This document shows, piece by piece, positions 8,920 to 12,563 of a DNA stretch of 23,301 nt. The stretch is taken from positions 1 through 23,301 of IMG/VR virus record IMGVR_UViG_3300006921_000166; one strand, written 5' to 3'. How positions within the stretch are numbered: the stretch's first letter is position 1; the number at the start of each line of letters is the position of its first letter. This DNA is from a virus. Position numbers and translations under genes: made by a program. The notes beneath the pieces are model-generated. The model was not told the DNA's origin and did not search any database. It saw only the letters and a program-made list of their open reading frames with translations.

Positions 8920-10116
8920 TTACTGCACGTAATACTTCCCTGCGTTTGGATTATCTAGGTGGTAAATCACATTGTAACGAATACCGTCAATAGCGTGATT
9001 GTAGTTGTCTACATAAAGCTTAGAACCTTTATCAGCGTATATGTAATTGTTTAGCTCTTTAGCTATGTTAGTTGATTCAGGAGTTATGATAAGCTCATAG
9101 TCTTGCATACGAGTTATTCCACTTTCAATAGTTCCTTTCTTTACAGGTTTTATGTTTACCCCTAAATGCCTGAGGTCTGCTATTAGTCTTGGTTCTGCAC
9201 TATCGGCAATGATAAGTTTGTTATCTACTTTGTCTAAAATAATTTGTGCCAACTCATTTGACTTTAAACCATTTCTGTAAATGTGTTCTTTTAAATATAT
9301 CTTACGCTTCCTTTTATCAATAGCCACTTCCGTAAGACTGTCAGGGTCTACACTAAAACCAAAGTCCATTCCACAAGAAGTCTGTAAGCCATCAGGATTA
9401 AATTCACCTATTGACCAATTCTCAAATACTACTCCTTCTGCTTTGTCAAGCCAACCACCCATGATTTTATGCGTGTACTTTTTAAAGTTTCTATGCTTTA
9501 TGCTCTTAATACGCTCTAGGAAGCTCTGTGAGAGGTTTTCTATATTGTCTAGGTAGTTGGTGTGGATATAGCATATATTGTCCTTAAAGCCGTTAAAACC
9601 ACCCTCTACGCCTTTATCCTCAAAGAACCTCTTGTATATCCAATGTTCTTTTGTTACAGGGTTCAGTATAAGTATCACTCTATTATGTATTCCCTTTTCC
9701 CTAATACTTAAATCAATGGTGTCAAAGATATTCTCATCAACTAATTCTTCTGCTTCATCTAACACCCAAGTGCTTATTCCCTGTAATGACTTTAGACTAG
9801 CTGTTTGGTTACCTGCTGAGGTTCTAATACCTCTAAATAAAATATCTGAATTATTTTTTGTGTTAACTACTTCTTTTTTATTAATACTAAATACTTCATC
9901 AAATCCTAGTAGTCCTATCTTTTCTAAGAACTCAGGAATGATTGACAAGTGAGCTGAAGTCATAGTGAAACGAGTAAAGAGTATTCTAATCCCTTTAGTC
10001 ATTGTAAGTAAAGTAAGAAAGACTGTTACAGCAAAAGACTTTCCTGAACCCCTACCCCCTGTTATAATAAAATATCTAGCGTCAGATTCAAATAGTGGGT
10101 TGTATTTCCTATTCAG
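8920..10116 (-). CDS. terL: Terminase large subunit, non-ATG start upstream of the first ATG
   Basis: The frame upstream of ATG 10002 encodes YNPLFESDARYFIITGG and then RGSGKSFAV, a perfect Walker A, so the real start is earlier. The frame opens after a TAG at 10128-10126 and offers no ATG, GTG or TTG; CTG 10116 (CTG AAT AGG AAA), or CTG 10122, is the likely start, overlapping the terS stop by 8 nt. Other motifs are STWVLDEAEE (Walker B plus catalytic Glu), ILILNPVTK (coupling), and the RNase-H-like nuclease Asp residues in GMDFGF, IIADSAEP and HAIDGIRY. About 398 residues, normal for a PBSX-type packaging motor. Confidence 0.85.
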   Translation of the reverse strand: MNRKYNPLFESDARYFIITGGRGSGKSFAVTVFLTLLTMTKGIRILFTRFTMTSAHLSIIPEFLEKIGLLGFDEVFSINKKEVVNTKNNSDILFRGIRTSAGNQTASLKSLQGISTWVLDEAEELVDENIFDTIDLSIREKGIHNRVILILNPVTKEHWIYKRFFEDKGVEGGFNGFKDNICYIHTNYLDNIENLSQSFLERIKSIKHRNFKKYTHKIMGGWLDKAEGVVFENWSIGEFNPDGLQTSCGMDFGFSVDPDSLTEVAIDKRKRKIYLKEHIYRNGLKSNELAQIILDKVDNKLIIADSAEPRLIADLRHLGVNIKPVKKGTIESGITRMQDYELIITPESTNIAKELNNYIYADKGSKLYVDNYNHAIDGIRYNVIYHLDNPNAGKYYVQ

Positions 10117-10468
10117 TATCAGTGTCTACAAATGTTATTACAGGCATATTGATTACCTTATCGCCTGATGTTATATCTAACTCTGACTTCTCTACGTACC
10201 CTCTACGCTTTCCCTTTGTCTTTAGAAAAAAGATTGTAGCTGATGTTGAGCCGTCACCTATCTGTTTATGTAATTGGCTTTCACCAAAGTCTAATGCAAT
10301 GTTTTCAATGTCCTGAACTTGTTTAGCAAATTCCTCATCTTCGTTTAGCCATTTATAGTATGTTGAACGTGGAACATCTGCTGATTTACAAGCAACTGTT
10401 ACAACTCCCAAGCTCTTTTCCAAAGCTTTCAAAATACTTTCCTTTTTTATGTGTCTACTTTCGTCCAT
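10109..10468 (-). CDS. terS: Terminase small subunit
   Basis: The N-terminal helix-turn-helix (ESILKALEKSLGVVTVACKS, then ADVPRSTYYKWLNEDEEFAK) is followed by a helix ending in FGESQLHKQIGDGSTSATIF, the usual phBC6A51-type small terminase pattern. It recognises the packaging site and recruits the large subunit. 119 residues, normal. It begins one base after the dioxygenase stop and its stop overlaps the probable start of the large subunit. Confidence 0.75.
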   Translation of the reverse strand: MDESRHIKKESILKALEKSLGVVTVACKSADVPRSTYYKWLNEDEEFAKQVQDIENIALDFGESQLHKQIGDGSTSATIFFLKTKGKRRGYVEKSELDITSGDKVINMPVITFVDTDTE

Positions 10469-10469
10469 A

Positions 10470-11288
10470 TTATATTCCTTTAAATGCTTTTAATGGATAG
10501 AAGATTAAACTGTTTCTATACCCATTTTCTGCTATTGGTTTTATTGGTGTTACTCCGTGTACATTTCTCCAAGCAGGGTACACTAACATTGAGTTGTCTG
10601 CCTGTTCAAAGGTTGCATTATAGTCAGGCACATTTAAGCAACCTCCATTAGCGTTATTTCTTTTTGTGAGGATTATGTTTACTGTTCCTACTATGTTTCC
10701 TGTATCTCTGTGGAATGGTGCTGATATATTAAAGTTAGATATACTACTTGTGTACATTGTTCCAAACTTCCATTCATCTTTCACATCTTCAAAGAGTTCT
10801 TGTTGCCTTTCGTATATGTTAGGAGTTAGTTCTTTAATGATTTGTTCTGCTTCTAAACAAGCTCCCCACATTGCTTTGATGAATGTCTGTGCTTTCTTAT
10901 CTCGGTGTACTGCTGATATATTTGGATAAGGTCTACGCATAATTGGCTTCGGTGCTACTGAACCTAAAATAGTGCTATATTGAGCTACTCCTGTTTCCCT
11001 GCTTTTAGCTCTCATTCCTTTAAACCTTTTTTTTCCGTATTCTTGTGCTACTACACTTGCTCTATCTAAAATAGTTTTAGGAACATTATCTCCTCTGAAC
11101 TCTTTATCTGCAACTGCTAATAACAGATTTAATCTTTGGCTGTACTTTGCTACATCTTTAATATAAAAGCCTACTATATCCCCATCAAGTTCTAACAGGC
11201 AATCTTCTTTTATGTTTGGTTCATAGTAAGGGCAGTCTTTACCTATCTTAATATTATGTTCTACTTGTTTGAGTTTAATTGTTTTCAT
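10470..11288 (-). CDS. TET/JBP-family 2-oxoglutarate/Fe(II) dioxygenase
   Basis: The C-terminal double-stranded beta-helix core is clear: SAPFHRDTGN gives the iron ligands H193 and D195, GGCLNVPDY the strand before the turn, NVHGVTPI the distal ligand H244, and GYRNSLIFYP the 2-oxoglutarate-binding R258. HxD, GGxLxxPxY and HGVTP together are characteristic of TET/JBP enzymes, which hydroxylate 5-methylcytosine or thymine in DNA. The first 120 residues (LELDGDIVGFYI) also recur in phage TETs. Length 272. It would make the hydroxyl that the upstream glycosyltransferase decorates. Confidence 0.75.
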   Translation of the reverse strand: MKTIKLKQVEHNIKIGKDCPYYEPNIKEDCLLELDGDIVGFYIKDVAKYSQRLNLLLAVADKEFRGDNVPKTILDRASVVAQEYGKKRFKGMRAKSRETGVAQYSTILGSVAPKPIMRRPYPNISAVHRDKKAQTFIKAMWGACLEAEQIIKELTPNIYERQQELFEDVKDEWKFGTMYTSSISNFNISAPFHRDTGNIVGTVNIILTKRNNANGGCLNVPDYNATFEQADNSMLVYPAWRNVHGVTPIKPIAENGYRNSLIFYPLKAFKGI

Positions 11289-12013
11289 CTTTTCAATAAT
11301 TCTTTGTAATTTATTTCTAGTTGATTTTCCCTTCTACTGTGAGGTTTTACAATTCCGTAATGCTTTTTCAATATATATTCGTTGCATTTAGCTTCTCTCT
11401 CTGATGTTCTATAATCATTTGCTCCACCTTTGTTACTTCTATGTGGAAAGGTCATAAGAAGAAGATTAAACCTTAAAACTTTATTCCCTGCCTTTACTTG
11501 TCTTATGAACATATCGTAATCTTCTTTTAAATCTGCTTTCTCATCAAATTTCATTTTACCATCAACTAAAATACAATCATTCACAATCAATTTATTCTGC
11601 TGAACTTGTTTACCTGTGTAGTAAAATAGATTATCTGTAATAGCTGTTCCTGCGTAACTACCCCCAATTTTCCTAAAGCTATCTACCATTATTCTTAAAG
11701 CTTCAATAAAAGTAATATTCTCTTTAGTGTATACACCATTACTTCCTCTTACTAAGTTTACCTTTTTATAGTCATCAGAAATTTGCAAACATAATCTTTC
11801 ACCTGCTTCTTCTATTGCTTTATTTCTTGCCTTACATATATTACCATCAACTTCAACTACATTGGAAGCTCCTGCTTCTAAATACTTATCTGCTTCTCCT
11901 TTTCTTGTGTAGTAGGTGAATTTTAATCCTGTCTTTTCTTCTAAGGCTTTTACATTATCTGCTCTATTGGTTGATATACAGCAGCAATATACATCAAGTT
12001 CTTTATTAATCAT
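11285..12013 (-). CDS. TET-associated glycosyltransferase-like protein (TAGT), GT-A fold
   Basis: LDVYCCCISTNRADNVKALE opens a Rossmann-like GT-A domain; NICKARNKAIEEAGERLCLQ then ISDD (residues 78-81) supplies the DxD-like metal site for a nucleotide sugar, followed by a LKEDYDMFIRQVKAG block and FPHRSNKGGANDYRTSE. This matches the TET-associated glycosyltransferases that modify hydroxylated bases in phage DNA. Its neighbour is a TET/JBP-type dioxygenase joined by an ATGA overlap. The expected reaction is transfer of a sugar to an oxidised base in DNA; sugar and base are unknown. Confidence 0.7.
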   Translation of the reverse strand: MINKELDVYCCCISTNRADNVKALEEKTGLKFTYYTRKGEADKYLEAGASNVVEVDGNICKARNKAIEEAGERLCLQISDDYKKVNLVRGSNGVYTKENITFIEALRIMVDSFRKIGGSYAGTAITDNLFYYTGKQVQQNKLIVNDCILVDGKMKFDEKADLKEDYDMFIRQVKAGNKVLRFNLLLMTFPHRSNKGGANDYRTSEREAKCNEYILKKHYGIVKPHSRRENQLEINYKELLKR

Positions 12014-12563
12014 TCTTAAAAGCTCTTAAAACGATTAACCCTACATTCTTCCCTTCCTTTCTTGCTGTGTTTATCAACAATACAGCTTCGTCATAATGCT
12101 CAGGTTCAAATTCTATTTGTATTGCTCTCTTTACTGAAGCTTCTTTGTCTTGTAATGTTGAGCCTAAGTCTAAATCTTCTAATACAGAATAGTCTACTGC
12201 TTCTTCAGGTTGCCATACATCCATACCCCACTCTCCTAGCTTTGCGTTATCCCATTCGTTTCCTAGAATATCCCAATCCCATTCACCGAACCCTACATTA
12301 TCCTTTACAATAAATTCTTCTTTCTGTTCTTCTGTCAAGCCCTTAGCTATTTTAACAGGAACTTCTTTTAGCCCTGCTGCAACACAAGCCTTGTATCTCA
12401 TATTACCACCTAAGATAACATTGTTCTCGTCAAGTATTATTGGTCTTAGGTCTAGCATTTCAGGAAAGTCTTTGATAGACTTTACAAGTTTTTTAAATTT
12501 AGCTTCCTTGATTATTCTAGGATTGCTTTCATTTGGTTTTAACTCATTGATTTTTAGTTTCAT
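12006..12563 (-). CDS. ParB/sulfiredoxin-fold protein in the DNA-modification cassette
   Basis: The N-terminal 100 residues show the ParB N-terminal domain: LKPNESNPR, KKLVKSIKDF, RPIILDENNVILGGNMRYKA with the GGNMRYKA box at 52-59, VPVKI and EEFIVKDNVGFGEWDWD. The second half is acidic and unknown. In phages, stand-alone ParB domains often accompany DNA modification enzymes; ParB is now known as a CTP-binding fold, and its role here is open. It overlaps the glycosyltransferase gene by 8 nt. First gene of the cassette. Confidence 0.75.
   Translation of the reverse strand: MKLKINELKPNESNPRIIKEAKFKKLVKSIKDFPEMLDLRPIILDENNVILGGNMRYKACVAAGLKEVPVKIAKGLTEEQKEEFIVKDNVGFGEWDWDILGNEWDNAKLGEWGMDVWQPEEAVDYSVLEDLDLGSTLQDKEASVKRAIQIEFEPEHYDEAVLLINTARKEGKNVGLIVLRAFKND

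Follow-up and report, generated by a model that had tools for sequence, protein, structure and literature searches.

A viral ParB–TET/JBP cassette with one exchangeable tailoring gene and a probable role in DNA hypermodification

Phage TET and TAGT families were reportedly predicted by Iyer et al. in 2013. In the phage TET–TAGT systems for cytosine hypermodification (Burke et al. 2021), a TET/JBP dioxygenase and a TAGT are encoded in one operon, as they are in the DNA described here. The few phage TETs that have been studied experimentally act on 5-methylcytosine (5mC), as Burke et al. 2021 are cited in PMC12730594. The clusters of certain actinophages (e.g. Rhodococcus phage Tonitrus, PMC11955845, and Microbacterium phage MO526) combine ParB, TET, ADDT and a predicted 5-hydroxymethyluracil (5hmU) kinase, and that of Tonitrus is termed by its authors a thymidine-hypermodification system (PMC11955845). 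The 5hmdU DNA kinase takes as its substrate 5hmdU in DNA; its product resists more restriction enzymes, for which gain phosphorylation by itself suffices (PMC7653180). The Prochlorococcus phages MED4-184, MED4-117 and P-HS2 have the same ParB–slot–TET–TerS–TerL order as the locus examined here, and a TET 46% identical to its own; they differ from it in that the slot is occupied by an FkbM-type methyltransferase (PF05050), and in that similarity of their TerL to that of the window is undetectable. Kinetoplastid base J, finally, is the work of JBP1/2 and a glucosyltransferase. The logic predicted for the locus examined here is the same—hydroxylation of thymine, then addition of a sugar—but the glycosyltransferase family, the organism and the purpose are different.

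The window, by which we mean the whole stretch of DNA analyzed, is a linear, incomplete IMG/VR contig fragment of 23.3 kb, and absences reported for it refer to that span. It encodes ParB, TAGT, TET, TerS and TerL in this order, all on the minus strand (Table 1). In contrast to the systems of Burke et al. 2021, the window and its complete relatives lack a C5-methyltransferase, ParB is a constant member, and the TAGT lies in a slot that may instead hold a methyltransferase or a kinase. The Tonitrus and MO526 clusters resemble the locus in their homologous TET (27–30% identity) and adjoining ParB, and their kinase is homologous to that of sister cassettes; unlike them, the marine cassettes have no ADDT, and their tailoring gene, flanked by ParB and TET, is exchanged singly. 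Judged on the open-access literature, this is a known kind of DNA-modifying enzyme in a new arrangement, a one-gene exchange slot.

We think it probable that a constant ParB–TET core, converting thymine to 5hmU, and one exchangeable tailoring gene together make up a cassette for post-replicative hypermodification. The ParB-domain protein would bind phage DNA and help to position modification. The TET/JBP enzyme, whose fold and residues are described below, would hydroxylate thymine in DNA at its methyl group, giving 5hmU, and the TAGT of the window phage, a sugar-adding enzyme by family, would glycosylate 5hmU to a product like base J. In sister phages another TAGT, an enzyme similar to 5hmU kinases, or an FkbM-type O-methyltransferase would perform other chemistry on 5hmU. 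Recombination in the ParB and TET flanks would swap the slot gene and so change the outer decoration in close relatives, a change that probably serves to evade restriction and modification-dependent nucleases.

The cassette and its enzymes

An earlier note, made from the letters of this DNA alone, had described overlapping genes for a ParB-domain protein, a TAGT and a TET/JBP dioxygenase directly before the terminase. The coordinates confirm both overlaps (8 nt, then ATGA) and the position, which recurs in unrelated phages. The family assignments also hold: in a Pfam scan, ParB and TAGT score above their cut-offs (PF02195 ParB_N, 28.3 bits versus 26.3; PF20691, 29.1 bits versus 27.5), and TET matches PF12851 (Tet_JBP) with 34.4 bits (E 1.6e-8), half a bit under the curated cut-off of 34.9. 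The TET of Tonitrus likewise scores under that cut-off. About 170 IMG/VR contigs encode relatives of the cassette; its retention in so many rules out chance, and the cassette is real and conserved. ParB is present in 73 of the first 81 loci and is 97–99% identical in the nearest relatives; TerS, which matches PF20901 (Sf6 terminase small subunit-like, E 7e-5), follows TET in 79 of the 81.

Table 1. Features of the cassette and adjoining genes, in positions of the window
Feature	Position	Strand	Remarks
ParB_N-domain protein, 185 aa	12006..12563	-	Left constant part of the cassette; PF02195
TAGT glycosyltransferase, 242 aa	11285..12013	-	Slot occupant, class C5; PF20691
TET/JBP 2OG-Fe(II) dioxygenase, 272 aa	10470..11288	-	Right constant part of the cassette; PF12851
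Left slot border, where the end of ParB and the start of TAGT share 8 nt	12006..12013	-	DNA identity to relatives falls from 83–98% to ~40%
Right slot border, where the stop of TAGT and the start of TET share ATGA	11285..11288	-	4 nt in most occupants, 14 nt in kinases
TAGT Asp-Asp of S-D-D (DxD-like) motif, residues 79–80	11774..11779	-	D80 invariant
TET iron ligands, H193-R194-D195	10704..10712	-	H193 and D195 invariant
TET distal iron ligand, H244	10557..10559	-	Invariant
TET 2-oxoglutarate-binding R258	10515..10517	-	Invariant
TET hypervariable patch, ~residues 77–103	10980..11060	-	Low-confidence region of the model
Terminase small subunit-like protein (TerS)	10109..10468	-	Directly after TET; PF20901
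Terminase large subunit (TerL)	8920..10122	-	PF04466 and PF17288; probable CTG start upstream of the listed ATG at 10002

The HxD motif, distal histidine and arginine that the earlier note had recognized in TET are present, and H193, D195, H244 and R258 show no variation across an alignment of 48 relatives or among four TETs of actinophages, mycobacteriophage included. A predicted structure without a double-stranded beta-helix would, by the note, have refuted it, and the fold predicted by AlphaFold2 is a double-stranded beta-helix of the TET type. Built on 48 relatives, the most distant of them 43% identical, the model reaches pLDDT 90.6 and pTM 0.88; 28 close sequences alone gave pLDDT 56.5, which rose to 90.6 when sequences 43–49% identical were added. 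Its best Foldseek matches in the PDB are CcTet, human TET2, NgTET1 and CMD1 (top matches at E 1e-11 to 1e-8, TMq 0.54–0.68), and AlkB-type enzymes rank lower. A sequence search of the PDB with TET gave a weak match to TET2 and nothing more. Scans of viral contigs with the single TET of Tonitrus or of Lilmac1015 found none, whereas an alignment-based scan found matches where these queries had failed. Of the searches of genome contigs, one query found none and another found three contigs of metagenome-assembled genomes (MAGs), none of them flavobacterial.

TET proteins near-identical elsewhere have exchanged the patch of residues 77–103. In the most extreme pairs the patch is 12–25% identical in proteins that are 93–95% identical over the remainder, and it falls below 70% identity in 23 of 78 close pairs; speculatively, it might set the target sites. 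In PHROGs (phrog_6059) and in many records, phage TET/JBP proteins carry the name queuine tRNA-ribosyltransferase, apparently a misannotation.

The TAGT of the window, directly downstream of which lies TET, matches phrog_842 (beta-glucosyl-HMC-alpha-glucosyltransferase, E 6e-12), and a sequence search of the PDB with it found nothing convincing. Its D80 is invariant among 17 divergent TAGTs from slots and actinophages. By themselves, the TAGT-like classes C4 and C9 fall short of the Pfam TAGT model; similarity in sequence and a DxD-like motif in common are the grounds for grouping them with it. Arthrobacter phage Lilmac1015 encodes a PIG-L deacetylase after its TAGT (order ParB–TET–TAGT–PIG-L deacetylase, L085:3742-7086), a gene order that hints at an N-acetyl sugar in this phage and suggests a de-acetylated amino sugar on its DNA.

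The oxidized base

According to the earlier note, the window lacked a cytosine methyltransferase and a base hydroxymethylase, and the substrate of TET could be either made elsewhere in the genome or thymine. The absence stands: the 23.3-kb contig has no match to PF00145 (C5-methyltransferase), and none of the window proteins scanned against Pfam is a methyltransferase or base hydroxymethylase; no 5hmU kinase or ADDT was recognized among the scanned proteins either. Of the two proposed substrates, thymine is the one we favor, and a base methylated elsewhere loses ground because complete relatives, too, are without a C5-methyltransferase. PF00145 is absent from all six of these (MED4-184, MED4-117, Tonitrus, Nigel, MO526 and Lilmac1015) and from mycobacteriophage-type genomes of about 70 kb. 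Among the IMG/VR relatives, most of which are fragments, it is absent from 80 of 90 contigs and present in 10.

The identity of the tailoring genes points the same way. The slot kinase of sister cassettes aligns with the kinases of Tonitrus and MO526 at an hhalign probability of 96% (E 2.8e-9), but scores only 14 bits with PF18751. The Tonitrus and MO526 kinases occur together with PF18724 amino acid:DNA transferases (ADDT), beside ParB and TET, and among 84 actinophage-type TET loci there is an ADDT in 33, a kinase in at least 47 and a TAGT in 18. Against thymine, no ADDT-type transferase accompanies the kinase in the marine cassettes; ADDT occurs in actinophage-type relatives only. Two TETs that are 98% identical have different partners, a kinase in L074 and a TAGT in L080, so that one TET product probably feeds both. 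Since complete relatives lack a C5-methyltransferase and kinase and ADDT genes stand beside the same ParB–TET core, thymine appears more likely than cytosine to be the base oxidized. A family search for thymidylate synthases (PF00303) found none in 27 records of relatives, a result that speaks against pre-replicative synthesis of hydroxymethyl nucleotides; a dCMP or dUMP hydroxymethylase route was dropped on this search.

In the rival scheme for cytosine, a C5-methyltransferase encoded by the host, or by phage DNA beyond the sequenced fragment, would make 5mC, TET would oxidize this to 5-hydroxymethylcytosine (5hmC), and TAGT would glycosylate the product. Known phage systems of a TET and a glycosyltransferase work in this way, as PMC12730594 summarizes Burke et al. 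2021. In favor of this scheme, the window contig is incomplete, PF00145 genes are present in the 10 IMG/VR contigs given above, in some of them at a distance of several kb from the cassette, TET2 and NgTET1 rank with the nearest folds—the structural neighbors of TET in the PDB are mostly 5mC-acting—and the substrate of the slot kinase could be 5hmC instead. Against this stand the six complete ParB–TET isolates and mycobacteriophage-type genomes without PF00145, and the kinase and ADDT partners, which belong to a thymidine route. We regard the cytosine scheme as unlikely, though it is the most serious competitor of oxidation at thymine. TETs that act on 5mC may have either Asn or Asp three positions after the iron-binding Asp, and pocket residue N198, which occupies this position, was dropped as an indicator of substrate because it does not discriminate. 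For phage TETs, the choice between thymine and cytosine is directly testable in cultured phages, namely P-HS2 and the cluster B mycobacteriophages.

Some observations from the same scans may be added. Two relatives (L013:514-1347 and L014:6567-7400) have a variable island that is separated by a few genes from the cassette, upstream of it, and encodes a C5-methyltransferase; a third relative has a partial PF00145 match (L001, 1950–2180). Gp3 of Mycobacterium phage Nigel (L083:1786-2382) is named a terminase small subunit and matches the P-loop kinase family PF18751 with 242.6 bits; by sequence it is likely an enzyme of the 5hmU-kinase type, misnamed across the cluster B phages.

A one-gene exchange slot between ParB and TET

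Between ParB and TET, one gene is present in 173 of 181 loci (contigs fetched twice being counted twice), none in six and two in two. ParB, TET, TerS and TerL are constant across each lineage while the gene in the gap varies. The window, for example, is 98–99% identical in ParB and 97–100% in TerS to L003, L004/L005, L007/L008 and L031, and its slot holds a TAGT of class C5 where theirs hold, respectively, class C1, class C2, class C3 and a kinase. At the DNA level its identity to relatives is about 90–98% over ParB, 83–93% over the last 60 bp of that gene, ~40% in the slot, and 72–98% at the start of TET. Of 156 pairs whose ParB and TerS are 97% identical or more, 61 have slot genes of different classes. 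When the threshold is set at 94%, 276 pairs are obtained, 120 with different slot classes and 156 with the same. Coverage by blastn in the 120 is 0.01 for the slot versus 0.99–1.00 for ParB, TET and the adjoining 1.5 kb beyond TET; slot coverage in the 156 is 1.00. On trees of 64 rows, the ten slot classes require at least 27 changes (TET tree) or 33 (ParB and TerS tree), and enzyme type (TAGT, kinase or methyltransferase) 6–7.

The repertoire comprises at least 10 TAGT-like classes, a P-loop kinase or an FkbM-type methyltransferase. Among 120 unique cassettes, 61 have a TAGT-like protein, 52 the methyltransferase (PF05050), six the kinase, and one no slot gene. At the right border of the slot, the overlap with TET is 4 nt for most occupants and 14 nt for kinases, and translational coupling is kept at the junctions. 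These comparisons of close relatives show the ParB–TET gap to be a one-gene exchange slot whose occupant has repeatedly been replaced, and the exchange, we infer, runs through recombination in the homologous ParB and TET flanks. The earlier interpretation is partly supported; it had missed that the slot takes many interchangeable genes, of which the glycosyltransferase is one.

Ordinary phage mosaicism, with any gene free to occupy the ParB–TET gap, might be thought to account for the slot differences, and upstream coverage does vary in the same pairs (0.56–0.98). But 119 of the 120 unique cassettes encode a group-transfer enzyme fit for a hydroxymethyl group, and in the last cassette the slot is empty; replacement is nearly always of a single gene, with overlaps of 4–14 nt kept; and the flanks align in full and the slot not at all. 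We rejected mosaicism on the comparison of classes in close pairs and on blastn coverage of slot and flanks, and consider it very improbable. That the enzymes modify a target other than phage DNA (host RNA, tRNA or host DNA), as the queuine tRNA-ribosyltransferase name in some records would have it, is scarcely credible given the TET/JBP fold with its DNA-acting nearest structures, the DNA-binding partner ParB, ADDT in relatives and the adjacent terminase.

If a constant thymine-oxidizing core with an exchangeable tailoring gene is the correct reading, phages diversify their DNA chemistry by exchanging one gene behind a constant oxidation. Abundant marine phages would then hold glycosylated 5hmU, 5-methoxymethyluracil and phosphorylated 5hmU, bases that are undescribed or rarely described, and many TAGT classes and their sugars would become assayable on one shared substrate. 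Whether near-identical phages indeed differ in the group that their 5hmU carries (one of several sugars, phosphate or O-methyl), a counterpart of base J included, with the TET patch perhaps setting the sites, seems to us an evenly balanced question.

Departures from the usual layout were seen in a few contigs. Tandem TAGT genes of two classes lie between ParB and TET at L054:8599-10004, and at L078:6-656 the TAGT has a PF04488 sugar transferase ahead of it. An Oscillatoria MAG contig (L298:9406-10792) has ParB and TET without a slot gene, and a transposase-like ORF nearby. Exchange of the slot gene recurs in a separate freshwater clade (L297, L301–L304), where the slot holds a TAGT, a kinase or a 309-aa protein without a Pfam match (L297:9075-10001, L301:3075-4001). 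This protein, known from freshwater contigs and from the MAG of a beta-proteobacterium, is possibly another type of glycosyltransferase.

Terminase neighbors and host

In flavobacterial, Prochlorococcus and freshwater phages the terminase comes right after the cassette, and in several actinophages it is close by; in Lilmac1015 the two lie apart. Gene order makes a link between the cassette and packaging plausible. The closest terminases from isolates are those of the Nonlabens (Persicivirga) phages P12024S/L, 63% identical, from which we judge the host to be probably a marine flavobacterium; no TET match was found in these two phages. TerL itself has an unusual beginning. Its Walker A motif, GGRGSGKS, is encoded upstream of the ATG at 10002, and on the minus strand between 10002 and 10122 there is no ATG, GTG or TTG start that would take it in; the frame opens again behind a TAG. 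Comparison with 13 relatives shows a conserved CTG at 10122, and TerL likely uses this CTG as its start, or else a frameshift.
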